Positions 35,045 through 50,105 of a stretch of DNA of 64,000 bases are shown here, one piece after another; position 1 is the first letter of the stretch, and each line of letters opens with the position of its first letter. The stretch is from Hyphomonadaceae bacterium (GTDB lineage: Bacteria; Pseudomonadota; Alphaproteobacteria; Caulobacterales; Hyphomonadaceae), in the NCBI GenBank assembly GCA_022844475.1, contig JALHLR010000002.1, forward strand, positions 1 through 64,000. The letters are read 5' to 3'. The notes beneath the pieces were generated by a model. It had not been told where the DNA came from. It made no database searches and worked only from the letters and a program-made list of their open reading frames with translations. The position numbers and the translations under genes are program-made.

Positions 35045-37513
35045 CTAACTCATCGCATCCCGCACCAGATCATCCTCCGCTTCGCGCAGGATAGCCTCGG
35101 CCGCGTCACCAGAGAACACGGGCTCCTTGCCCATCTCCAGCATCACCGGCACGGCGAACGGCGATATCTGCTCCAGCTTTGCATGCACGATCTTGCCCTT
35201 GAAGCGCTTCAGCGCCTCGCCCAGCCGGCGGATGTCAAGCAACCCGTCTCCCGCGTCCTGCCGCGCTGCCTGCAGCAGGATGTGATCCGGCTCATGTGAT
35301 CGCAGCACGTCGTAGATCAGATCGGTCGAGAAGGTGATCTGGCGCCCGGTTTTCTCGTGTTTCGGCATCCGCCGCTCGATCAACCCGGAGATAAGGGCAT
35401 TGGTCCGGAAGGTCCGCTTCATCAGCGCGCTCTCGTCCAGCCATGCATCCAGATCGTCGCCCAGCATGTCCTCATGGAACAGCTGGTCGAGGTCTTCGCC
35501 CCGCATGTCCTCCATTGCCCATACCGCCAGCGCGTACTCCGAGGCGACAAAGCCAAGCGGCTTCAGCCCGGTCCGCTCCAGCCGCCGCGTCAGCAGCATA
35601 CCCAGCGTCTGATGCGCCAGCCGCCCTTCGAACGGATAGCAGACGAGGTAGTGCCGCTCGCCGCGTGGAAACGTCTCCACGAGCAACTGGTCCGCGGCAG
35701 GAATGATGGACTTGCGCTCCTGCACCTCGAACCATTCGCGAACCTGGTCGGGCAGGTGCTTCCATCCCTCGCGATCATGCACGATGCGACGCACCCGCTC
35801 AGCCAGAAATGTCGTCAGCGGAAACTTTCCGCCATTGTAGCTTGGGATGGCCGGGTCCGGATCAAAGGTCTTCGTCACCAGCGCTTCAGTGTCCGACACA
35901 CCCTCGAACCGCAGCACCTCGCCGGCAAACAGGAAAGTGTCGCCCGGCGTCAGCATCTCGAAGAAATACTCCTCCATCTCGCCAAGCTTGCGTCCCGGCC
36001 GCATCAGCCGCTTGTTCTCGGAAGCCTTGATGAACGAGACCATCCGCACCGAGATCATAGGGTCTTCGACGATCACGCCGACATTCATGCGATGCTGCCG
36101 CCGCACTTCGTCATTGCGCGCGCGCCAGACATTGTCGGGAAACCGCACGATCCGCCGGAAGCGGTCGTAGGTCTTCAGCGCATAGCCGCCGGTGGCGACC
36201 AGATCGACGACGCGCTCCCAGGTCTCACACGCAAGATCGGCATACGGCGCCGCCAGCCGCACTTCATCGTAGAGCCGCACCGCGTCGAAGCCTTCGCCGC
36301 ATGCGCGCGCCATCACATGCTGCGCCAGCACGTCGAGGCCGCCACACCGCAGACCACCGCCGTCCAGCTCCCCCGCCGCGACCGCCTCAACCGCCGCACG
36401 GCACTCGAGCACCTCGAAGCGATTGCTCGGCGCAAGCAGCGCGCGGCTCGGCTCATCCATCCGGTGATTCGATCGCCCGATCCGCTGGATCAACCGCGAC
36501 GAGCCTTTCGGCGCGCCCATCTGCACCACCAGATCGACATCGCCCCAGTCAATACCCAGATCGAGCGTCGACGTGCACACCACCGCCTTCAGCTTGCCCG
36601 CCGCCATGGCCGCTTCGACGCGTTTGCGCTGCTCGAGATCCAGCGAGCCATGGTGCAGGGCGATGGGCAGCGAGTCCGCGTTGACGCGCCACAGCTCCTG
36701 GAACGTCATTTCGGCCTGACTGCGCGTGTTGACGAACACCAGCGACATCTGCGCGCCCTTGATCGCGTCATAGACCTCGCGGATGTTGTGCCGCCCGGAA
36801 TGCCCCGACCACGGAATGCGCGCTTCCGAATCCAGCACGGTGATGTTCGCCTGGGCGCCGCCCATATGCCGGATCACTGGTGTGTCCGGTCCCATCCAGC
36901 GCGACAGCGCCTCCGGATCTCGCACCGTCGCCGACAGCCCGATATGCCGCGCAGCCGGCGCCCATACCCGAAGCGTCGCCAGCCCAAGCGCCAGCAGGTC
37001 GCCACGCTTGGTGCTCGCGATCGCATGCACCTCGTCGACGATCACTGCACGAAGATCACAGAAGAACCGCTGCGCATGCTCCGATGCCACCAGCAGCGCC
37101 AGCTGCTCCGGCGTGGTCAGCAGGATATCCGGCGGCCTGGCCCGCTGCTGCTGCCGTCGCGAAGCCGGCGTGTCGCCGGTTCGCGTGTCCATCGAGATGT
37201 CGAGAGCCATCTCCTCGACCGGCCGCCCCAGATTGCGCGCGACATCAGTCGCAAGCGCCTTCAGTGGTGAAACATACAGCGTATGCAGTGCAGGATGCAC
37301 ACGCGGCGGTGTCTCCGCCAACTCGATCAGGCTCGGTAGGAATCCCGCCAGCGTCTTGCCGCCGCCTGTCGGCGCAATTACCAGCCCGCCTTGCCCGCGC
37401 CGCGCCGCCTCGATCAGATCTGCCTGGTGAGGCCGCAGAGTCCATCCACGCATGGCGAACCAGGCGGCGAAGCGGGCCGGCAACAGGCTGGGCGGATTGG
37501 GATCGTCGGCCAT
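35045..37513 (-). CDS. Ligase-associated DNA damage response DEXH helicase (Lhr-like)
   Basis: APTGGGKTLAGFLPSLIEL, VIVDEVHAI (DEVH), VFVNTRSQAE, GRSNHR; start at MADDPNPPS. Confidence 0.93.
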   Translation of the reverse strand: MADDPNPPSLLPARFAAWFAMRGWTLRPHQADLIEAARRGQGGLVIAPTGGGKTLAGFLPSLIELAETPPRVHPALHTLYVSPLKALATDVARNLGRPVEEMALDISMDTRTGDTPASRRQQQRARPPDILLTTPEQLALLVASEHAQRFFCDLRAVIVDEVHAIASTKRGDLLALGLATLRVWAPAARHIGLSATVRDPEALSRWMGPDTPVIRHMGGAQANITVLDSEARIPWSGHSGRHNIREVYDAIKGAQMSLVFVNTRSQAEMTFQELWRVNADSLPIALHHGSLDLEQRKRVEAAMAAGKLKAVVCTSTLDLGIDWGDVDLVVQMGAPKGSSRLIQRIGRSNHRMDEPSRALLAPSNRFEVLECRAAVEAVAAGELDGGGLRCGGLDVLAQHVMARACGEGFDAVRLYDEVRLAAPYADLACETWERVVDLVATGGYALKTYDRFRRIVRFPDNVWRARNDEVRRQHRMNVGVIVEDPMISVRMVSFIKASENKRLMRPGRKLGEMEEYFFEMLTPGDTFLFAGEVLRFEGVSDTEALVTKTFDPDPAIPSYNGGKFPLTTFLAERVRRIVHDREGWKHLPDQVREWFEVQERKSIIPAADQLLVETFPRGERHYLVCYPFEGRLAHQTLGMLLTRRLERTGLKPLGFVASEYALAVWAMEDMRGEDLDQLFHEDMLGDDLDAWLDESALMKRTFRTNALISGLIERRMPKHEKTGRQITFSTDLIYDVLRSHEPDHILLQAARQDAGDGLLDIRRLGEALKRFKGKIVHAKLEQISPFAVPVMLEMGKEPVFSGDAAEAILREAEDDLVRDAMS

Positions 37514-37605
37514 CAACCGAACATAGGCCGGGCGACAGAACAGGTTAAGGCGCCCCGCCCGGTCTTTAACCTTTTGATAGCCATGTCGGCGCAACATCCT
37601 TCCTC

Positions 37606-38436
37606 ATGACCGTCTCGATCCGCGCATCGCTCCTGCTCAGCGCCCTCGCCATGGCGGGTGTGACGGCTGCCTTCTCCGCGCCCCCTTCTGAAGACCACGC
37701 CACGCCGCCCGCGGGGCCCACTGCATCGAGCGTTTCCGACACCAAGTCAGCACCTCACACTGCGCATTGGAGCTATGGCGGCGAGGGTGGGCCCGACCGC
37801 TGGGGCGAGCTCGCCCCCGAGAACAAGCCCTGCGCCATCGGCGGCCAACAATCGCCCATCGATCTCACACGCCCGCTGACCGCCAGCCTGGACGTCCCGG
37901 TCGCACGCTGGTCGCCGGCGAACGGCGCGCAGGTCGTCAACAACGGCCACACGCTGCAGGTCAATATCACCAGCCCAGGCAGCCTCCAGCTCGACGGCAA
38001 GGACTATGCCCTAAAGCAGTTCCACTTCCACCACCCATCCGAACACACGATCGACGGCAAGTCCTTCCCGCTCGAAATCCACTTCGTCCATGCCTCCCCC
38101 GACGGAGCTCTCGCTGTGATCGGCGTCATGGTCGATGGCGGCGCGGTCAATCCGGCGCTCAATCCCATCTGGGCCGTCGCGCCGGCGAAAGAGGGGACAG
38201 CCGAAGCCGCCGGCGAGGTCAATCTCGACGCCTTCCTGCCGGAGGGCTCCAGCCTATATCGCTACGAAGGCTCGCTCACGACGCCACCTTGCTCCGAGAC
38301 GGTGCACTGGACGGTGATGTCCACGCCGATCACGGCCTCGCCAAGTCAGCTCGCTGCCTTCGCCCAGCTCTTTCCCATGAATGCGCGCCCCATTCAGCCG
38401 CTCAACCGCCGCTTCATCCTCAAGACGTCTGGCTGA
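37606..38436 (+). CDS. Alpha-type carbonic anhydrase
   Basis: HWSYGGEGGPDRWGEL, QQSPIDL, LKQFHFHHPSEHTIDGKSFPLEIHFVH, LTTPPCSETVHW. Confidence 0.96.
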   Translation: MTVSIRASLLLSALAMAGVTAAFSAPPSEDHATPPAGPTASSVSDTKSAPHTAHWSYGGEGGPDRWGELAPENKPCAIGGQQSPIDLTRPLTASLDVPVARWSPANGAQVVNNGHTLQVNITSPGSLQLDGKDYALKQFHFHHPSEHTIDGKSFPLEIHFVHASPDGALAVIGVMVDGGAVNPALNPIWAVAPAKEGTAEAAGEVNLDAFLPEGSSLYRYEGSLTTPPCSETVHWTVMSTPITASPSQLAAFAQLFPMNARPIQPLNRRFILKTSG

Positions 38437-38842
38437 GCCGCCACTGCGACGCGCGCCAGAGCCAGGGCGCCGTAGCGAACACGAACACACCGAACACTGT
38501 CAGTCCGATCAACACCCAGTTGAAGCCGTACTCGAATGTCGGGAACTGAGTCCAGTTGACGACCAGCGTCGTCGCCATCGTCGCCACACCCAGCGCCACA
38601 CCCGCGCGCGGATGCGCCAGCATCAGCCAGAATACCATCAGGTCCACGGCGCATACGGCAAACCAGAACCACACAGCCCAGGCCGGCGCCGGACCGTGAT
38701 ACAGCAAGCTTCCATTCGCCCACAGCCAACCGAAATGCGACACGCACCCGAACACGAACCCCCATGCCAGACCAACGCGCACACGATCGGCGGCGTTCAT
38801 CTGCGCCGCCCACGCACCCGCCATCTGAGCGAGCCATCTCAC
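38420..38842 (-). CDS. Small polytopic membrane protein (terminal gene of lipid/isoprenoid-like operon)
   Basis: 140 aa with about four hydrophobic segments; start overlaps upstream stop by 4 nt. Confidence 0.75.
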   Translation of the reverse strand: MRWLAQMAGAWAAQMNAADRVRVGLAWGFVFGCVSHFGWLWANGSLLYHGPAPAWAVWFWFAVCAVDLMVFWLMLAHPRAGVALGVATMATTLVVNWTQFPTFEYGFNWVLIGLTVFGVFVFATAPWLWRASQWRLSQTS

Positions 38843-40254
38843 GCCAGCATCTTCCTGAGCTGCGCATAGTCGGCCTTGGAGTTGTGCCGTTTGTCCATCG
38901 GCACCTCTTTCACGAGCACGACTGCCATATCGCCCAGCACCCTCGCCCGCACCGAAAGATCCGAGGCGTTCAACCCATCTCCCGCGAGCGCAAGCCGCGC
39001 CCGCCCTTCATCCGCCAGCAGCGCCGCCTGCTGCACGCCGGGCCAGCTCAGCGCCGCCGTCTCGACCGCAAACGGAAACAGCCCGGCGCTTGCCGCTTCG
39101 CGCCGCCCCAGCAGCCACAGCCGCCCATGTTCATCGATCCGCGCAGCATCGCCAGTGCGATGCCAGAGCACGCCATCATGTACCGACTTGGTCGAGACAT
39201 CATCCGCTGGATCAAGATAACCGCGGTTCACATGCGCGCCCGCGACGAACACTTCATGGTCGCGCAGCCCGACCTCGATTCCGGCGATCGGCTTGCCAGC
39301 CAGCAGCCCTGCGCCTTCCGCCATCGCGCGCCAGTCCGCCTCTGAAATGTCTTTCAGCTCCAGATGCGCAATCGGCTCTGCTTCCGTCGAACCATAGACG
39401 GCATGAATCGCCGCATTCGGCGCAGCCTTTGCAGCGGCGCGGAGCAGGTTGGGATAGACCGGCCCGCCACCCGTGAAGACCGCATCCAGCTGCCCCATCG
39501 GCGCAGCACCCTCCACAATCCGCGCGACAACGGCCGGCGGCGCAACGATCCTGTTCACGCGATGCTGCGATATCTGCCGGCGCAATCTTGCGCCATCCAG
39601 CCTGGCCGGCCGCGTCAGCTTGCCCGCCGGGATCACGCTCGTCGCCCCCGCCGCCAGATTGGAGAGGATGAACACCGGCAGCGAGATCAAATCCACATCG
39701 CCAGGCTTTGTCCGCCGCAGGTCTTCCAGCAACCGATGCTGCAGCATCAGGAAGTCTGCCGAGCGAACGATACCCTTCGGTCGCCCGGTCGATCCCGATG
39801 TGAACGTGATCAGGGCAGGCGCGTCCCCCGGCAGATGCGCCAGCGGATCACGCGCCACCGCATCATCATCGAAATCGGGCAGCACCGTCAGCTGCCGCAA
39901 TTCCGGAAACAGCATACGTACCACATGCCCGATACCAGCTGTCGCAATTGCCTTCGGTTGCACCATTTCAACCGCGACGCGCAAGCCCTTCAGCCCCGCC
40001 GCAGGCTCCGGAAACATCGCAACTGCGCCGAGCCGGAAAACCGCCAGCAATGTCTCGTAAAGCTCAACCGAGACGCCACGCGCGATAAGCACGACATCAC
40101 CCGCGCCGACGCCGGCGCGCGCGTACGCCAAAGCCCGGATCGCGGACGCCCGTGCGAGCTGCGCATACGTCGTCGGCGGCCCGTCGGCGGCGATGATCGC
40201 CACAGCATCCGGCCGCGCCTGCGCCTGCGCGAGAAACGTCCCGACGAGATTCAA
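38839..40254 (-). CDS. AMP-binding (ANL) acyl-CoA synthetase/ligase-like
   Basis: LITFTSGSTGRPKGIVRS, YGSTEAEPIA, WHRTGDAARIDEHGRLWLLGR, C-terminal NSKADYAQL lysine. Confidence 0.9.
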   Translation of the reverse strand: MNLVGTFLAQAQARPDAVAIIAADGPPTTYAQLARASAIRALAYARAGVGAGDVVLIARGVSVELYETLLAVFRLGAVAMFPEPAAGLKGLRVAVEMVQPKAIATAGIGHVVRMLFPELRQLTVLPDFDDDAVARDPLAHLPGDAPALITFTSGSTGRPKGIVRSADFLMLQHRLLEDLRRTKPGDVDLISLPVFILSNLAAGATSVIPAGKLTRPARLDGARLRRQISQHRVNRIVAPPAVVARIVEGAAPMGQLDAVFTGGGPVYPNLLRAAAKAAPNAAIHAVYGSTEAEPIAHLELKDISEADWRAMAEGAGLLAGKPIAGIEVGLRDHEVFVAGAHVNRGYLDPADDVSTKSVHDGVLWHRTGDAARIDEHGRLWLLGRREAASAGLFPFAVETAALSWPGVQQAALLADEGRARLALAGDGLNASDLSVRARVLGDMAVVLVKEVPMDKRHNSKADYAQLRKMLA

Positions 40255-41084
40255 AGCCGCCCGCCCCAGAGCGCATAGCGCCGGAATACCTTGCCGCCTG
40301 TCCTGTCGCTGTGCGTCACCGAAAGATTGCTCTCGTGCATCAGCGCGTGAATCACCTCCCCAAACCCCCGCGCCTGCGCCCGCGCATGAAACGCATTGGC
40401 CAACATCGACCCGCCACCCTTCACGCGCGATGCATACGTCTTGAGGATCACCGTCTTCGTCCGCGGCCCCTCGACAAGATTGGGCACAGCAAAGAGAAAC
40501 CCCTTCAACTCGCCTGCCTCATCCTCAAGCAGCAAGACCAGTTCGGGGTCGACCGCTGGCAAGACAGGCCGATAGCTCGCCAGAAAGTCTTCGAGCGCGA
40601 TTGGTTGATAAAAACGATTGTCCGCGAACGCCGCCAGCGACAGGGCATGAATGCGCGTCAGATCCTGTTCGGCCCGCAACGGGTCGAAATTGCACACACG
40701 CAACCCTGCAGGCGCCGTCGTCGCAGTGGCGGGCACATCCGCCGGCCGAACCGCCGACACATAGCGCGACACCACCGAAAGCCCCGACTGCTCGAACGCT
40801 TCCACATGGTGTGCAGGGTCTGATGGCTCCATCAGGAATGGCGCACGCCCATCACTCTCGATCACAAGCCGATGCTTTCCCCAGGTATTCCCATCCATCG
40901 GCCCAAGCACGGCGCCGAATCCCTCGGCCTTCAGCCCCACCATCGCCTCGCGTATTGCCCGCGCTCCTGCTTCCGCAGTCTCGCAGCTGAACTCTCCGAG
41001 CGCTGCCGTACGCAAGCCCTCCAGCGATGGGGCGTCGCGGAAGATTCCGAGCCTGGCGCCATGCACCTGGAACGACTCTGTCAT
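40251..41084 (-). CDS. GNAT-like protein
   Basis: GPMDGNTWGKHRLV, ALMHESNLSVTHSDRTGGKVFRRYAL; overlaps next gene by 4 nt. Confidence 0.65.
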   Translation of the reverse strand: MTESFQVHGARLGIFRDAPSLEGLRTAALGEFSCETAEAGARAIREAMVGLKAEGFGAVLGPMDGNTWGKHRLVIESDGRAPFLMEPSDPAHHVEAFEQSGLSVVSRYVSAVRPADVPATATTAPAGLRVCNFDPLRAEQDLTRIHALSLAAFADNRFYQPIALEDFLASYRPVLPAVDPELVLLLEDEAGELKGFLFAVPNLVEGPRTKTVILKTYASRVKGGGSMLANAFHARAQARGFGEVIHALMHESNLSVTHSDRTGGKVFRRYALWGGRL

Positions 41085-42418
41085 GGCGGCGACAGCGGCA
41101 AAACGATCAGACCCACAAACATGCACACACCACCAAGCACAAGCCACGGCCGATCATAGTCCCGGCGCCGCAGGAACCATCCGACCAGTGCGATGCCGAC
41201 AATGCCGAAAAGCCCAACCAGCGTAAACAGAAGCGCCGGCTCGCTCTGCGCCTCCGCCCAGTAAGTGCGGATCGACATGGCGCCCCAGGCAATCACAACC
41301 GCAATCGCGGCTGACCAGACGCTCCTTGCAAAGCGCGCGGCAATGCCCGCCGCCAGCCCTGCGAAAGAGAGATTGAAGCCATGGATCGTATCCATGCGCG
41401 CCACATGACTCACGACAAAATACAACAGCGCAATCGCCGTCACCACGACAAGCAGGTTCAGCGCATCATGGGGCGGTCTGTCCGGCTTGCGGATGCTCAG
41501 CGCGGCAATGTAGGTCGCCACCGCAACGGCCGGGGTCACGACGCTTGTCGGCTCGGCGAAGATCGCAATGCAGAAGAACAGCGTCGACCCCACGGCGAGG
41601 AAATGCCTCTCCTCGCCCGATCGATGTCGCGCCACGAGCAGCAGGGCGATCAGCAGCAGGAGGAACATCGTGGCAAGCGCCGCCAGCCCGGCGGCGCCCA
41701 TGTAGAGCAGGTTGGAGAGCAGGAAGTAGAGGCCCAGGGGGATGAACAGATTGTCCAGCCCACGCCAGCTGGCCGCTTCAAGCAACGCTCCGAACACCGC
41801 TGTGATGAAGGCCAGTAGAACCGCCTCGCCGCGCCCGATATCCGTCAACATGAGGAACGCGATCAGCGAGAGCAGCCAGGCGGTCATGGCGAACGCGACC
41901 ACACCCTCGACGCTCTTCTTGCCGTCCTCGACCTCGAACACCCGCCGCCCATAGCGGGAGCCGACCAGCGCGCTCGCTGCGTCGCACAGCGTCAGCACCA
42001 GGATCGGGAGGATGTAGAGAATGTCCCCCGGCGGGGCCTTCTGGTGCATCGTTGTCGAGATGAAGTGTCCATCCTTCAGCCAGAACAACAACGCCACAGC
42101 GACCGCAAAAAGCAGCTCGCCATAAGACTTGCGCGCCACCGCATGCAGCCCGCCGCCAAGGCTCTGACGCGCCACCCCACGCGCGGCCACGAAAACGAGC
42201 AGGGCCAGCGCACACGTCGCGCCAACTTCCCAGGCTGCGTCGAACACGTATGGGAAGGTGAGGCAGTATAGCCCGAGGCTGATATGCACCAGCTTGCGCC
42301 CTACCTCGGGATCAAGCCGCGCCAGCTTCGCCAGCCGCGACACACTCCACAGCACGCCCGCCAGCAGGATCACAGACCCCGCGATCTTCCCCGCGCTGAG
42401 CAGCAGCGCCTCGTTCAC
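41081..42418 (-). CDS. Polytopic membrane protein, SEC59/DGK1/VTE5-type polyprenol/phytol kinase-like
   Basis: GRKLVHISLGLYCLTFP, LTLCDAASALVGSRYGRRVFEVEDGKKSVEGVVAF (KSxEG motif); many TM segments. Confidence 0.75.
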   Translation of the reverse strand: MNEALLLSAGKIAGSVILLAGVLWSVSRLAKLARLDPEVGRKLVHISLGLYCLTFPYVFDAAWEVGATCALALLVFVAARGVARQSLGGGLHAVARKSYGELLFAVAVALLFWLKDGHFISTTMHQKAPPGDILYILPILVLTLCDAASALVGSRYGRRVFEVEDGKKSVEGVVAFAMTAWLLSLIAFLMLTDIGRGEAVLLAFITAVFGALLEAASWRGLDNLFIPLGLYFLLSNLLYMGAAGLAALATMFLLLLIALLLVARHRSGEERHFLAVGSTLFFCIAIFAEPTSVVTPAVAVATYIAALSIRKPDRPPHDALNLLVVVTAIALLYFVVSHVARMDTIHGFNLSFAGLAAGIAARFARSVWSAAIAVVIAWGAMSIRTYWAEAQSEPALLFTLVGLFGIVGIALVGWFLRRRDYDRPWLVLGGVCMFVGLIVLPLSPP

Positions 42419-43512
42419 GTCACGGTCTCAATCACGAAGTCGGAATAGAAGAACGCCTTGTCCAGCGGCTTCAGCTTCGCCTCCAGCGCAGTATCCGTCG
42501 TCACACGATCAGCCAGTGAAGCAGGCACGCGCCGCGGCGCCATCATGTTCCAGTAGGCGATACGCGCGCCTGGACGAGCCGCCGCGAGAATACTCGCATA
42601 GGCTTGTTCATGAGCCCGCGGCGACATGTACTCGAAGATATCGGAGAGGTTGAACGCATCCGCCTTCACGCCTTCCTCCGCCAGCGTCTCCACAGTGCAG
42701 AGCCGCACCTCGAGCCTGTCCAGCCGATCACGTATCGTCTCGAACCGCTCCAGTTCCAGCGCACGCGGCAACGCCTCGCCATGGCAGCCCTTCAGGATCC
42801 AGTGGAGGTAGGGATTCATCGACGGATCCTGTTCCACCAGCGCCTTGCGCGTCAGCCGCGCCACCTGCGCCGACGGCCCGCCCTCGACATGATCGAAAAA
42901 GGCAGGATCACGCCCCAATCGCCCCATGACGAAGCGCGAGAAGAAAACCTTCACCAGCGTCCGCCAGCCCCAGATGTTCCAGCTCCTGTCGTAGAACGCA
43001 CCGCGCGCATCGGCCTCGCGCGGACGCAGCAGCGCGTCGATCGTGTCCTTGTTGTGCACGAAGGGCAGAACCCATTCGCGGAAGGTACGGAAGTACCGCT
43101 CGAACTTGCCGACGCCACCGACGCCATATGTGGCCACATCCTCCTTGATCGCTGCCCAGAACGCCTGATCTTCATCCGAGAGCAGCGCTGCTGAATGCTC
43201 CAGCAGGTGCCGTCGCCGCCCGGAAGGCCGCGACCCCATCAGTTCGAGAAACTCCTCATGGCTGTGCGTCCGGTACATCGCCATGCGCATCCGGACGCAG
43301 GCCAGTTGCGTCGGGTTGAGGTCCACCGCGATGACGCGCTCCGCCCCTTCGGCCAGCAGCGCCAGCGCATTGTCGCCCGCTGAAGCGATCGACACGACTG
43401 TATCGTTCGGCCCGGGCCGCAATGCGGCGCACAGGATGTCGGCGTCTTCCCACGCCTGCGCGTAGCGGATGATGTCAAAGCTCGCGCGCTTTGCGATATC
43501 GGTCTCAGCCAT
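42415..43512 (-). CDS. DUF3419/BtaA-like SAM-dependent 3-amino-3-carboxypropyl transferase
   Basis: IRYAQAWEDADILCAALRPGPNDTVVSIASAGDNALALLAEGAERVIAVDLNPTQLACVRMRMA; FNLSDIFEYMSP. Confidence 0.85.
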   Translation of the reverse strand: MAETDIAKRASFDIIRYAQAWEDADILCAALRPGPNDTVVSIASAGDNALALLAEGAERVIAVDLNPTQLACVRMRMAMYRTHSHEEFLELMGSRPSGRRRHLLEHSAALLSDEDQAFWAAIKEDVATYGVGGVGKFERYFRTFREWVLPFVHNKDTIDALLRPREADARGAFYDRSWNIWGWRTLVKVFFSRFVMGRLGRDPAFFDHVEGGPSAQVARLTRKALVEQDPSMNPYLHWILKGCHGEALPRALELERFETIRDRLDRLEVRLCTVETLAEEGVKADAFNLSDIFEYMSPRAHEQAYASILAAARPGARIAYWNMMAPRRVPASLADRVTTDTALEAKLKPLDKAFFYSDFVIETVT

Positions 43513-43514
43513 CG

Positions 43515-46043
43515 CTAACTCCTGCTCACCCGCTCAACCGTACCCGACCCTCCGTCAAGCCGCACCGTATCGCCCGTCTTCAACCACTGCGTCACGCCCT
43601 TGAGCGACACCACGCACGGTACCCCCATCTCCCGAGCGACAATGGCCGAGTGCGAGAGCAGGGAGCCGCGCTCTGCGATCACGCCAGCCGCATTGGCAAA
43701 CACCGCGATCCAGCCCGGGTCGGTATGTCGCGCAACCAGGATCTCACCCGCACCCAACGCCTCGACGCGCGGGTCCTCGATCACGCGCACCTTCGCTGTA
43801 ACTACGCCGTTGCAGCATCCGAGCCCCTTGCGCATCTCACCGCCTTCGCCAGCTACAACGGCCTGCGCAGTCAGACCAGCCACGCCCGTCACATGCGCGC
43901 CCGATACGCTGAACCGCTCCGGCGGATCCGGCCGCGCAATCTGCCCCGCATGCTCCGCCGCCCTCAACCGCACCAGCGCCTTCAGGTCTTGCGTGATGCC
44001 GGCGCCCTCAACAGCTCCCAGCAGCTCCTCCACCGTCAGATTGAAGACATCGCGCGGCTGCTCCAGAACGCCAGCGGCCCGCAACCGCGCGCCAAGCGCC
44101 AGGAAAATGCGCCGCACGCGCCCGAACAGACGGGTTCGCTCGAACCGCAGATTTTCCCGATCCCGCACCCGCGCCTTCGCCCAGTCCACCAGCCACCGCG
44201 CCAGCACACGCTTGCCGAACTCGGGGATGAGCAAGTGCAGGTCCTGCTTCACACCCTGCGCTCTCGCCGCCTCACGCGAGGCGCCCGCTGCCGCTACAGC
44301 CATCAGCACCTGCGTTGGATCTTCATGCAGCGTCCGGCTCTCAAGCTTCAGTTCCTGCGTGCACCTGTCGCCGAACTTTCCGATATAGCGATCGAACGCG
44401 GCCCTCAGCTCCGGCGCCGCATCGACCGCTTTCCGGTCGCCCGCTGCAAAGCGCGCCACGACGTCCGGCCGATCGCGAACCATCGTTCCCATTGCACGGA
44501 TCATCTTCGCAGGCTCAGCCGAAACAATATCGCCTTGACCCATCAAGGTCGCAGACAGGTAAGCGACGCCTTCATCGCCCGCCCACCTGGTCATCGACTT
44601 CTGCGCCGCGCCGAACGCGATCATGCAGAGGAAATCGTTGACCAGCGGCGCATCCCACTTTGCCAGCAGACGCCTCTCCAGCAAGCGGTATTCCGCGGCC
44701 AGCTCCGTCGCCTGCATCGCATCGATCACGCCGTCGGGTTTCGCCAGCGCCGCATTCAGCCGCGCGTAGAATTCACGGATCGTCCCCTTTATCCGGACCT
44801 CATGCCAGGCCAGCCCCAGTCCCACGCGCGCAAGCTTGAGATTGTCGATGAACCGCTCCCATCCGCTCGTCGAGGGCGGGGCGATGCGACTTGCCATCTC
44901 CTCCGGCAGCGCCTCGGAGACGCCCATCATGCCTTCCATGAATTTCCGGTTCGCCTTGAACCCCGGAAACAGCGCCAGCGCACGATACCAGTTCAGCAGA
45001 TTGTAGTAGACCCGCCCATCCACACGCCCGAGCATGTTCTCGAACACCGCGCGATGTTCATCGACATCCGCCGCCGGCACACCCATCAGGCGCGAGAACG
45101 CTTGGTACACATGGCTGTAGACATACCGCGCAAACGAGAACGTCAGTGGCGATGTGACACCCGGATAGCTCTCGACGATGTTGGAGTTGTCCCAGATGGT
45201 CAGCTCTTCCGCGCTCTGCCCACGCGGTTCCTCCCCCTGCAGGGGGGAGGACAGAAGGGGATCTCTCTCAACGCCCCCCAGAGTCGTAATCGGCCGCGAC
45301 TGCAACATATGCAGCCCACGCGCATCGAACGCCCACTCGATATCCTGCGGCGACCCAAAATGCGTCGCTGCCCGCCGCGCCATCGCCGCGACTTCTACGC
45401 GCTCAGCCTGGCCCAGGACCGGCGCATCGCCCACCAGCTCCGCCTCAAGCGACGCCCCATCAGCGCCGATCCGGTAGTTGTCGCCGTCAGCCTCACCGCC
45501 CACAAGCTTGTCGGCCAGCCCCGCTATTGCACTGATCACCACCACGCTGAGATCGCCCGACACCGGATCCGCTGAAAACGCCACGCCCGCAGCGCGTGCT
45601 TCAACCATCACCTGAACCACGACAGCAGGCGGCTGCGGCGCGTCCGAAAGTCCATGCGCCCGGCGATACTGCGCCAGCGTGTCGCTGAAGCCCGACCGCC
45701 ACACCCTATGCGCCGCCGCCGCCACGTCGTCCGGCGCCACATTCAGCTCGGTCTCGAACTGACCCGCATGCGCCGAAGCCGCGCCATCTTCCTCACGCCC
45801 CGACGAGCGCACAGCCAGTCGCCCTGCCCCGCCTTGTACGGCGAGCGCCGCTAACCCCCGATTCACGTCTTCCCGCGCATCGGCCTTCAGACCATCCTGA
45901 TCGAAAGCCTCCGATGCGATCACGAAGAACGCAGGTACCGGAAAGGTCGCAGCCAGCTTCGCCAGTGCAGCGCCCTTGCCACCCGCCAGCACCGCGGACA
46001 TGGCGGCCTCACCCGTCAGGACATATCGGTGCGACTCGCTCAC
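43515..46043 (-). CDS. PEP-synthase/rifampin-phosphotransferase-like dikinase
   Basis: AGGKGAALAKLAATFPVPAFFVI N-terminal ATP-binding; mid-domain; C-terminal swivelling His domain AERGSLLSHSAIVAREMGVPCVV; no visible PEP-binding TIM barrel after it. Confidence 0.82.
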   Translation of the reverse strand: MSESHRYVLTGEAAMSAVLAGGKGAALAKLAATFPVPAFFVIASEAFDQDGLKADAREDVNRGLAALAVQGGAGRLAVRSSGREEDGAASAHAGQFETELNVAPDDVAAAAHRVWRSGFSDTLAQYRRAHGLSDAPQPPAVVVQVMVEARAAGVAFSADPVSGDLSVVVISAIAGLADKLVGGEADGDNYRIGADGASLEAELVGDAPVLGQAERVEVAAMARRAATHFGSPQDIEWAFDARGLHMLQSRPITTLGGVERDPLLSSPLQGEEPRGQSAEELTIWDNSNIVESYPGVTSPLTFSFARYVYSHVYQAFSRLMGVPAADVDEHRAVFENMLGRVDGRVYYNLLNWYRALALFPGFKANRKFMEGMMGVSEALPEEMASRIAPPSTSGWERFIDNLKLARVGLGLAWHEVRIKGTIREFYARLNAALAKPDGVIDAMQATELAAEYRLLERRLLAKWDAPLVNDFLCMIAFGAAQKSMTRWAGDEGVAYLSATLMGQGDIVSAEPAKMIRAMGTMVRDRPDVVARFAAGDRKAVDAAPELRAAFDRYIGKFGDRCTQELKLESRTLHEDPTQVLMAVAAAGASREAARAQGVKQDLHLLIPEFGKRVLARWLVDWAKARVRDRENLRFERTRLFGRVRRIFLALGARLRAAGVLEQPRDVFNLTVEELLGAVEGAGITQDLKALVRLRAAEHAGQIARPDPPERFSVSGAHVTGVAGLTAQAVVAGEGGEMRKGLGCCNGVVTAKVRVIEDPRVEALGAGEILVARHTDPGWIAVFANAAGVIAERGSLLSHSAIVAREMGVPCVVSLKGVTQWLKTGDTVRLDGGSGTVERVSRS
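45229..45251. repeat. Near-perfect palindrome TCCTCCCCCTGCAGGGGGGAGGA within CDS
   Basis: Read directly; arms complementary about a central CTGCAG. Confidence 0.7.
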
Positions 46044-47011
46044 GATGGCGGCAACGACATCAGCAGCGGTATCACGCCCAGCAGCAGGTAGTTTCCCAAC
46101 ACGAACACGGCCGTGCCGGTCTCCATCTGCTTGACCTGTCTCGCCGCCGGCGTCCCAGCATAGTCAATCGCAGTCCACGCCGCGAACATCGTCACGAGCA
46201 TCAGGCCGACGAGGACAACCACACCGGCATCCGACCGGACATTGATGAATGCCGACAACGCCAGCCCCGCCAGCACAAACGCCATCACCACAATGCCAGC
46301 TCGTTCCGCGCCCCACAGTCGCGAATACGTCTCGACGCCCTCGCGCTCCATCTCCGGCGCCCAGCTCTTGCGGGCAATCTCGATCACCGACCCGTTCACA
46401 AGCGACAGCAACAGAAACGCGCCCAGCGTCAGTCCGAAGCTTTCATGAAGCGCCGCGTCCGCCGGCAACCAGTCGCAAGCCGTCGCATAGAGATCGATCA
46501 ACGGCATGATCGCCATATGGCTCACCATGTAGATGATCGGCCGCTTCTTCAGCCAGGCGGGAACGAAGAACTCCTTCGTCATCACCGCCATCCAGGCCCA
46601 TACCAGCAGCAGAGGCCCAATCAGGCGCCAGTCCAGCGCAACCGTCAGCGCAATCTGCGCGACACCCACGCCGATCGCCACACCGCGCAACTCGGCCAGC
46701 TTCACCAGGCCACGCGGCACCGGCCGCTCCGGCCGGAACTTCGAATCGTCGGCATGGTCCTTGTGCTCGTCCGCCACGCGCAGCTGGAAGAAGAACCCGA
46801 ACAGCACCAGCACCGCGACGGCGAGCGCCATCAGGTTGGGCGCGTCGCCGCGCAGCAGGGCCGACAGGCAAACCGCCGAAGCGCCGAACGCCGCGATCAG
46901 CACGCCATGCTTCACGAGCGGAAAACGCTCCGCCTGATACGCCCAAAGCCGCGCGCCCAATCCCCTTGTGTCGGGCACGCGCGTGTCAGACCGTGCAACG
47001 GCCTCGCTCAC
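46040..47011 (-). CDS. UbiA-superfamily prenyltransferase
   Basis: FFFQLRVADEHKDHADDSKFRPERPVPRGLV Asp-rich motif; EIARKSWAPEMEREGVETYSRLWG second motif; polytopic. Confidence 0.82.
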   Translation of the reverse strand: MSEAVARSDTRVPDTRGLGARLWAYQAERFPLVKHGVLIAAFGASAVCLSALLRGDAPNLMALAVAVLVLFGFFFQLRVADEHKDHADDSKFRPERPVPRGLVKLAELRGVAIGVGVAQIALTVALDWRLIGPLLLVWAWMAVMTKEFFVPAWLKKRPIIYMVSHMAIMPLIDLYATACDWLPADAALHESFGLTLGAFLLLSLVNGSVIEIARKSWAPEMEREGVETYSRLWGAERAGIVVMAFVLAGLALSAFINVRSDAGVVVLVGLMLVTMFAAWTAIDYAGTPAARQVKQMETGTAVFVLGNYLLLGVIPLLMSLPPS

Positions 47012-48294
47012 GCCTTTCCTCGCGCCAGGTTCTTGTGTGCGCTCGCGAACTCATGCGCGCACAGCGCCCCGATGATCGACAGCTCGCCCGCAAGGCACAC
47101 CGCTGCGCACACCTCGCCGAATTGCCGCACATTCCCCGCGCCCTTGAGCCCCATGATATTCAACCCCGCGGACTGAGTTGGAAGCGCAGTGCCGCCGCCC
47201 ACCGTTCCGACGATGATGTTGGGCAGGGTCACGGATACGAACAGCCGGTCATCCTCGCGCAATTCGATGCGCGTCACACCGACCGCGCTCTCGGCGACGC
47301 AGGCCGCATCCTGTCCAGTCGCCAGATACAACGCGGCCAACCCGTTCGCATAATGACCCTGAACGCCGATAGACCCGGACATGACGCCCCCCAGCGCCGA
47401 CATCCGCCAGTACTGCTCCATCCGCTGCGGTGTGGTGTGCAGCTGTTTGCGAATCTGCTCGCCGGACAGCTCAACGGACGCCGTGACCTTGCGTCCACGT
47501 ACGCCCATGAACGACATCGCGGACGCCTTCTTGTCGCCTGACAGGTTCGCCTCGACGAACCAGTAGACTGGCTTGATGGGCGAGTGTTCCTCAATCGCCT
47601 TGCAGACCGCCTCGGTCGCGATGGTCACCATGTTCTGGCCGGCCGCATCCCCTGTGGTATAGCTGCAGACGAGATAGACATGATCGCCCTCGACGTGCGG
47701 GCTCAGCTCAACCAGCCTGCCGTGCCGCGTGGTGGTCTCCGCTGCCGCCTTCAACCTGTCGAAACTCCCGCACACCCAGGCAACGAACAGGCCAGCATCC
47801 GTGGTCGAAGCAAACGCAAAACCCGGCGAGCGATGGACACCCTCGGCCAGCGTGCCTGTCGTGCATCCGCCCACCGACGAGATCAGCCGCGCCCCGCGCC
47901 CATAGCTTGCCACCAGCGCCGCTTCACTGGTCGCGAGCGGCACATAGTAATCACCCTTTGCGAAAATGCCGTTCACCCGCAGCGGCCCGATGACGCCGAC
48001 CGGCAACCGCAACGTCCCGACATAATTCTCGATGTTGTGCTCGTACCGCTCAAGCTCTTCCTGGGCCCGCGCATCATAGAGCGCGGCCCTGTCAGCCTCG
48101 CTCGCACCAGAATGCCCGAGCAGGGTCTTCCAGTTCGCCGCGGTGAATGTCGCCTCGATATGCTTGGCAGGACGTATCCACGGCTTCAGAGGTGTCGACG
48201 TGTCGGGCCGCGTCCGCTCGGCAACCTCCGCCGACGTCCGTCCCGACAGCATCGCCGCGATCATTCGCCGGGCGGCATCAAAAGCGCTGGGCAT
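47008..48294 (-). CDS. Hydroxymethylglutaryl-CoA reductase, class I-like
   Basis: ENYVGTLRLPVGVIGPLRVNG, TSEAALVASYGRGARLI, TGDAAGQNMVTIATEAV, SGDKKASAMSFMGVRGRKVTA, YLATGQDAACVAES, VGTVGGGTALPTQS, HEFASAHKN. Confidence 0.93.
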   Translation of the reverse strand: MPSAFDAARRMIAAMLSGRTSAEVAERTRPDTSTPLKPWIRPAKHIEATFTAANWKTLLGHSGASEADRAALYDARAQEELERYEHNIENYVGTLRLPVGVIGPLRVNGIFAKGDYYVPLATSEAALVASYGRGARLISSVGGCTTGTLAEGVHRSPGFAFASTTDAGLFVAWVCGSFDRLKAAAETTTRHGRLVELSPHVEGDHVYLVCSYTTGDAAGQNMVTIATEAVCKAIEEHSPIKPVYWFVEANLSGDKKASAMSFMGVRGRKVTASVELSGEQIRKQLHTTPQRMEQYWRMSALGGVMSGSIGVQGHYANGLAALYLATGQDAACVAESAVGVTRIELREDDRLFVSVTLPNIIVGTVGGGTALPTQSAGLNIMGLKGAGNVRQFGEVCAAVCLAGELSIIGALCAHEFASAHKNLARGKA

Positions 48295-49076: not shown

Positions 49077-50105
49077 ATGATCCGCCCCGAAGACCTGCTC
49101 TGCCCGACGCCAGGGGGCCTCTATTGCCCGCCCGGAGACTTCTTCATCGATCCGGTCCGCGGCGGTGTCGACCGCGCCGTCGTCACCCACGGCCACTCCG
49201 ACCACGCCCGCGCCGGCCACGGCGCCGTCCTCGCCACACCCGAGACCATCGAGGCGATGGCGACCCGTTATGGCGGGGAGTTCACGAAGTCACGCCAGTC
49301 TGCTCCCTATGGCGAGACCAACCGCATTGGTGATGTTGATGTGACGCTTCATCCCGCCGGCCACGTCATCGGCTCAGCCCAGGTCGAAGTTCGCTGGAAA
49401 GGCCTCACCATGGTCTGCACCGGCGACTACAAGCGCCGCGCCGACCCGACAGCCGCTCTCTTCGAAGTCGTCCCCTGCAATATCTTCATCTCCGAAGCGA
49501 CTTTCGCGTTGCCTGTATTTCGCCACCCGGACAGCAGGGGCGAGGTCGCAAAACTCCTCACCTCCATCCGCGCTTTCCCGGACCGCGCTCACATCGTCGG
49601 CGCCTACGCCTTCGGCAAGGCCCAGCGCGTCATCCGCGAACTCCGCGACGCCGGATACGGAGAGACGATCTATATCCACGGCGCCATGAAACAGCTTTGC
49701 GACATGTACGAGCGCCTCGGCGTCGATCTTGGCCCACTCGAATCCGCCACGCTGGAAAAGGGCCAGCGCAAGGACAACCAGAAGTTCGCCGGCAAGATCA
49801 TCGTCTGCCCGCCCTCCGCCACCGGCACGCCATGGGCCGAACGCTTCCCTGACCCCGTGATCGCCTTCGCCTCCGGCTGGATGAACATCCGCCAGCGCGC
49901 CAGGGCCGGGGGGATCGAACTCCCCCTGATCCTCTCCGACCACGCCGACTGGGACGAACTCACGCAAACTGTCACCGACGTGAACCCCGAAGAACTCTGG
50001 GTCACCCACGGCCGGGACGATGCGCTCGCCAGATGGGCCGAACTCAACGGCCGCAAGGCAAGGCCGTTGCACCTCGTCGGCTACGAAGACGAAGCGGGCG
50101 AATAG
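49077..50105 (+). CDS. Ligase-associated DNA damage response exonuclease (metallo-beta-lactamase fold)
   Basis: AVVTHGHSDHARAGHGAVLATPETIEAMATRYG, HPAGHVIGSAQVEVRWKGLTMVCTGDYKRR, LSDHADWDEL. Confidence 0.93.
   Translation: MIRPEDLLCPTPGGLYCPPGDFFIDPVRGGVDRAVVTHGHSDHARAGHGAVLATPETIEAMATRYGGEFTKSRQSAPYGETNRIGDVDVTLHPAGHVIGSAQVEVRWKGLTMVCTGDYKRRADPTAALFEVVPCNIFISEATFALPVFRHPDSRGEVAKLLTSIRAFPDRAHIVGAYAFGKAQRVIRELRDAGYGETIYIHGAMKQLCDMYERLGVDLGPLESATLEKGQRKDNQKFAGKIIVCPPSATGTPWAERFPDPVIAFASGWMNIRQRARAGGIELPLILSDHADWDELTQTVTDVNPEELWVTHGRDDALARWAELNGRKARPLHLVGYEDEAGE

Follow-up and report, generated by a model that had tools for sequence, protein, structure and literature searches.

The 64,000-nucleotide stretch analysed here (the window) is part of contig 2 of a Hyphomonadaceae draft genome (3.17 Mb, 78% complete). 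Its minus strand carries, at 38420-48294, eight consecutive open reading frames (ORFs), all of which could be read from the sequence, and the first of them is the single 3-hydroxy-3-methylglutaryl-CoA (HMG-CoA) reductase (HMGR) gene of this genome (Table 1). The coordinates bear out the arrangement described in the initial annotation, in which neighbouring genes overlap by 4 nt at six junctions and are 2 nt apart at the seventh. The overlaps had been called ATGA-type; they are in fact NTGA, and the start codons inside them are mostly GTG or TTG. The overlap between the VTE5-like and GNAT genes depends on the choice of the ATG at 41084 as the GNAT start, while a longer GNAT ORF begins at 41147. 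Pfam cut-offs were passed by the window proteins assigned to HMGR, UbiA, PPDK_N with PEP-utilizers, DUF3419 and AMP-binding.

Table 1. Genes of the operon in the window, in order of transcription
Gene	Predicted product	Position	Strand	Basis of assignment	Junction with next gene
1	HMGR-like reductase	47008..48294	-	PF00368 364.8 bits; catalytic E/K/D/H retained	4-nt overlap, 47008-47011
2	UbiA-family prenyl/alkyl transferase	46040..47011	-	PF01040 39.6 bits and motifs	4-nt overlap, 46040-46043
3	RPH/PigC/RedH-type dikinase-like phosphotransferase	43515..46043	-	PF01326 and PF00391, no PF02896	2-nt gap, 43513-43514
4	DUF3419 (BtaA-related) putative S-adenosylmethionine (SAM) aminocarboxypropyltransferase	42415..43512	-	PF11899 199.6 bits	4-nt overlap, 42415-42418
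5	VTE5/SEC59-like putative lipid-alcohol kinase, membrane	41081..42418	-	motifs	4-nt overlap, 41081-41084
6	Tandem-GNAT N-acyltransferase-like	40251..41084	-	AlphaFold (AF2) model, fold matches	4-nt overlap, 40251-40254
7	AMP-forming acyl ligase, PRK09274/OleC neighbourhood	38839..40254	-	PF00501 132.2 bits	4-nt overlap, 38839-38842
8	Small membrane protein, 140 aa, accessory	38420..38842	-	no Pfam match	

The distribution of the locus was assessed by a scan of one genome per species across 84,980 species, baited with a GNAT protein alignment. The scan yielded 361 relatives; the analysis covers the best 80 of them, at 78 loci, and all counts per 78 loci rest on this set. By its own criterion, the initial annotation would have been refuted if the homologues never co-occurred outside this genome; co-occurrence was found, with all seven of the first genes present in 60 of the 78 loci. 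Order and strand are the same in 58 of these 60, the rearranged ones being L070 and L110, and most incomplete loci are cut by contig ends, with readable parts that agree with the operon order. An order-wide search identified four other genomes in which an HMGR orthologue is linked to cluster genes, one of them from another family (HMGR 52% identical). The hosts span Rhodobacterales, Hyphomicrobiales, Sphingomonadales, Dongia, Halomonas and other γ-proteobacteria, and their genera include Yoonia, Loktanella, Thioclava, Roseibium, Bosea, Devosia, Chelativorans, Sphingomonas, Dongia and Halomonas; metagenome-assembled genomes (MAGs) of Granulosicoccaceae and Legionellales are further hosts. In Verrucomicrobiota and β-proteobacterial MAGs (L113, L118, L119) the later genes and an operon-type HMGR lie on separate contigs, and UbiA adjoins HMGR in two of these three MAGs. 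The genes from UbiA to the AMP-ligase are also present on a plasmid of Roseinatronobacter sp. S2, where they are annotated with generic names only; HMGR was not seen in this plasmid stretch, where it would straddle the start of the record.

Pairwise distances of the seven genes are correlated (Spearman 0.61-0.88), and the Halomonas HMGR is nested beside that of Chelativorans in the HMGR tree, which indicates lateral transfer. Among 385 genomes sampled from the class, just one other held a close DUF3419 relative, and the operon is therefore rare and scattered. Altogether, co-inheritance of the seven genes as one pathway is strongly supported, and the operon is best explained as a self-contained biosynthetic unit passed between lineages. 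The eighth gene was rejected as a core member: it occurs in only 10 of the 78 loci, all close relatives, and the conserved unit is therefore the first seven genes of what had been described as an eight-gene operon. The single-contig genome of Hyphomonas sp. ih12 (L035/L052) has HMGR and RPH ORFs that are each broken by apparent frameshifts, apparently through sequencing error or recent decay.

Plant and archaeal HMGR sequences served as references for the reductase, with residues given in human HMGR numbering and tallied over 62 operon orthologues. The human HMG pocket is formed by S684, K735, N755, D690 and K692 together with the catalytic residues (PMC7503714). The catalytic tetrad Glu559, Lys691, Asp767 and His866 is retained in 61-62 of 62 sequences, the lone exception being a gap, and Arg590, Asp690, Lys692 and Asn755 are retained in every operon row covering the site. 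Two pocket positions are replaced throughout: Ser684 by Glu (61 sequences) or Asp (one), and Lys735, in all 62, by Ala, Ser, Thr or Gly. The Lys735 column borders a one-residue gap, and the adjacent columns also have no Lys in the rows shown. The operon HMGRs form one clade (100/99), and Glu at the Ser684 position is also found in the Verrucomicrobiota and β-proteobacterial copies. A second, non-operon HMGR-like family, another paralogue, occurs in many genomes of the same taxonomic order (L007-L031; e.g. L036 9092-10261) at ~40% identity to the operon HMGR (P0001). It keeps Ser684 in 24 of 25 members and lacks Lys735 (Ser in 25 of 25), which makes the Glu/Asp change the signature of the operon clade. 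No conserved or shared neighbours were found for this family at the seven loci checked, and it was rejected as a part of the system. Judging from these residues, the substrate of the operon HMGR is probably not HMG-CoA.

The supply of isoprenoids was examined by family searches in 22 operon genomes (21 named ones and the window's own), with controls positive where expected. HMG-CoA synthase was found in none of the 22, nor was mevalonate kinase above cut-off, three genomes giving weak matches to the latter. As for the methylerythritol phosphate (MEP) pathway, IspH is present in all 22 genomes and Dxr in 18; the four without Dxr are Hyphomicrobiales, for which a DXR-like substitute is known. 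HMG-CoA lyase scored above cut-off in 17 genomes, and the remaining five gave weak matches only. A canonical mevalonate pathway was rejected on the synthase, kinase and IspH results; these and the altered pocket also fail to support the role of mevalonate and isoprenoid supplier that the initial annotation implied for the HMGR. The operon enzyme very probably does not feed the synthesis of isopentenyl diphosphate.

Among the partner enzymes, UbiA carries the Asp-rich motif ADEHKDHADDSKFRPERP and ERxGVETYS, with the strict Asp-rich pattern in 44 of 64 orthologues, and shows weak similarity to geranylgeranylglycerol-phosphate transferases. The RPH-like protein has an N-terminal ATP-binding domain (residues 58-256) and a C-terminal phosphohistidine domain (residues 765-834) with the motif LSHSAIVARE, whose His motif is kept in 67 of 70 orthologues. 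Entries labelled phosphoenolpyruvate (PEP) synthase top its PDB matches; the Pfam search found no PEP-binding domain PF02896, and a PEP synthase identity, suggested by the initial label 'PEP-synthase-like', was rejected for that reason. The YAxxWED motif is present in all 74 DUF3419 orthologues, and a PDB search with the window protein gave no match. In the VTE5-like family the motifs RKxVH and K[ST]xEG are each found in 72 of 75 orthologues. The window GNAT protein has no Pfam match, and Acetyltransf_1 is matched in 19 of 53 aligned members. Its AF2 model (predicted local distance difference test, pLDDT, 93.9) has the tandem GNAT MAB_4324 and the mycothiol synthase MshD as top PDB matches, and gene 6 is, on the basis of this model, a tandem-GNAT fold. 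The catalytic-Lys motif DxRHx[SA]K of the AMP-ligase is present in all 73 orthologues. The family assignments proposed initially thus stand for HMGR, UbiA, DUF3419 and the AMP-binding protein by Pfam and for GNAT by fold, while the fold search for VTE5/SEC59 was negative, its AF2 model (pLDDT 88.9) giving no significant PDB fold match by Foldseek.

Genes that adjoin the operon in other genomes point to a lipid product. About ten Rhodobacterales loci have a conserved pair, a divergent sulfotransferase (PF13469) and a cytochrome P450, beside the operon, upstream in L089, L091, L094, L097, L098, L103, L104, L105, L107 and L111 and downstream in L053; these are probably tailoring genes. An MMPL transporter adjoins cluster genes in L110 and L119. 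A genome from another alphaproteobacterial family (G430; L134 6810-13658) has the variant order RPH-DUF3419-UbiA-GNAT, followed by a phosphatidylserine-decarboxylase-like gene that would fit the removal of the carboxyl from an aminocarboxypropyl group.

We propose, with a probability of roughly 0.6 that leaves the order of steps aside, that the operon encodes an undescribed pathway with a repurposed HMGR, whose product is an amphiphilic alkyl or prenyl conjugate bearing a SAM-derived aminocarboxypropyl group. In this scheme the AMP-ligase would activate a carboxylic acid, and the HMGR-like enzyme, diverted from HMG-CoA, would use NADPH to turn an acyl thioester into a primary alcohol. This alcohol would then be phosphorylated by the VTE5-like kinase and the RPH-like dikinase, first to the monophosphate and then to the diphosphate, much as VTE5 and VTE6 phosphorylate phytol. 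UbiA would transfer the resulting (or an MEP-derived) prenyl or alkyl diphosphate group to an acceptor, DUF3419 would add 3-amino-3-carboxypropyl and GNAT would acylate the amine. Aminocarboxypropylation, prenyl transfer and acylation are all inferred from family membership. The order of steps given here is the one that uses every enzyme, and in its exact form it is doubtful. That a real undescribed pathway is encoded here is a claim we make with high confidence. A bolder version, a wholly undescribed bacterial lipid class whose HMGR-fold enzyme reduces a different acyl thioester with no mevalonate link, has a little under even odds; the thioester would perhaps bear an amine matching the new Glu of the pocket.

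Several observations weigh against this proposal. The VTE5/SEC59 assignment is putative, resting on motifs and on one weak match to CTP_transf_1 (1.5e-4, in 1 of 43 members), and UbiA barely clears its Pfam cut-off of 34.2 bits. Loss of Lys735 is shared with the non-operon HMGR-like family, so this replacement does not by itself imply a new substrate. HMG-CoA lyase in 17 of the 22 genomes means that HMG-CoA can exist in most hosts. Finally, searches of G430 gave no match to HMGR in the genome and none to the VTE5-like or AMP-ligase genes on the contig of the variant cluster; those steps may therefore be separable from the rest.

That HMG-CoA can be available is also the starting point of a rival explanation, in which mevalonate is a building block: HMGR would make it from HMG-CoA of leucine breakdown, the ligase would form mevalonyl-CoA and GNAT would transfer the mevalonyl group to the aminocarboxypropyl amine. 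Such activation and transfer are known from the fungal SidI and SidF in siderophore synthesis, and the operon has the required HMGR, ligase and GNAT, the HMGR with Arg590, Asp690, Lys692 and Asn755 in place. This explanation is nevertheless unlikely, as Ser684 and Lys735 are both replaced in 62 of 62 sequences, for five hosts no HMG-CoA synthase and no above-cut-off HMG-CoA lyase was found, and the RPH and VTE5 enzymes are left without a clear role. Slightly less probable again is an archaeal- or betaine-like lipid, for which UbiA would form a glycerol ether (cf. digeranylgeranylglyceryl phosphate synthase), the VTE5-like protein would perform CTP activation and DUF3419 would supply a homoserine headgroup to be acylated by GNAT, with HMGR as an auxiliary. 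The weak resemblance of UbiA to geranylgeranylglycerol-phosphate transferases, the single CTP_transf_1 match, the BtaA relationship of DUF3419 and the MMPL neighbours are all in its favour; yet the UbiA matches are weak, the operon has no geranylgeranylglyceryl phosphate synthase or glycerol-phosphate gene, and the RPH-like enzyme and HMGR stay unexplained.

Ordinary mevalonate supply for isoprenoids would account for an HMGR that is class I-like, full-length and equipped with the catalytic tetrad, but it is close to refuted by the absence of HMG-CoA synthase and of above-cut-off mevalonate kinase beside universal IspH in the 22 genomes, and would need a hidden non-orthologous mevalonate branch. 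Compact bacterial genomes are commonly tightly packed, and unrelated housekeeping genes could in principle have been brought together by chance. This last explanation is refuted by conservation: the genes are collinear across classes, their distances are correlated and their distribution is scattered, with a Halomonas HMGR nested beside Chelativorans and a plasmid copy.

Under the proposed conjugate pathway, a conserved HMGR clade with a remodelled pocket in MEP-pathway bacteria would extend a textbook enzyme to a new function. HMGR is commonly taken as a marker of the mevalonate pathway, and such a clade would call for caution in pathway calls made from HMGR alone. We know of no member of the HMGR family that reduces another acyl thioester in a pathway unrelated to mevalonate; a new substrate would be categorically new for HMGR. 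Culturable isolates such as Thioclava indica DT23-4, Yoonia maritima and Bosea psychrotolerans carry the seven-gene unit, and a new class of lipids or meroterpenoids could thus be searched for directly.

In the window, the gene immediately upstream of HMGR, likewise on the minus strand, encodes a lipocalin-domain lipoprotein (PF08212; 48446-49000). The gene is next to the operon in close relatives too (L033 12554-13108, for example), and its product is a possible lipid-binding partner. The flanks are formed by an Lhr-like DEAD helicase gene (DEAD_assoc; 35045-37597, minus strand) on one side and, on the other, by an ORF at 49077-50105 (plus strand) without a Pfam match that was recognised by eye as metallo-β-lactamase-fold nuclease-like. 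Lhr-like helicase and nuclease genes of this fold are often grouped with a gene for DNA ligase; an insertion of the operon between them is therefore possible.

The initial claim of a pathway that is apparently undescribed and co-inherited is strongly supported by the collinearity and correlated distances and by the literature, where we found no description of this gene set; only open-access papers were covered, which makes this weak evidence of absence. The enzyme families are known ones, while the combined pathway matches none that we can name. The closest known counterpart of gene 1 is class I HMG-CoA reductase, with which it shares full-length PF00368 and equivalents of the eight retained residues listed above; it differs in the two pocket replacements, in its score against the TIGR00533 equivalog (319 bits, below the cut-off of 441.8), in forming a separate clade and in having hosts from which the other mevalonate-pathway enzymes are missing. 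The RPH-like protein resembles RPH, PigC and RedH in its ATP-binding, middle and phosphohistidine domains and in the missing PEP-binding domain, but falls below the cut-offs of all three NCBIfam equivalogs and has different operon partners and presumably a different substrate. DUF3419 belongs over its full length to the Pfam family of BtaA, the SAM:diacylglycerol aminocarboxypropyltransferase, and shares its WED and SAM-region motifs. It is ~25-35% identical to the BtaA-like loci detected in the class, and whereas a BtaB-like methyltransferase ORF, recognised by eye, follows those outgroup loci, no BtaB methyltransferase is among the seven operon genes. The operon GNAT has the fold of MAB_4324 and MshD at ~16-17% identity, with no pathway in common. 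PRK09274 (245.8 bits) and the OleC-type model (131 bits) are the nearest NCBIfam models of the ligase; both scores are below cut-off, and the operon has no other ole-type gene. Finally, the plant VTE5-VTE6-HPT route of phytol salvage for tocopherol has a VTE6 (DUF92) that the operon lacks, whereas the operon, which is not a member of that system, adds a reductase, a ligase, DUF3419 and GNAT; the plant route pairs a lipid-alcohol kinase with a UbiA transferase, as the operon does.

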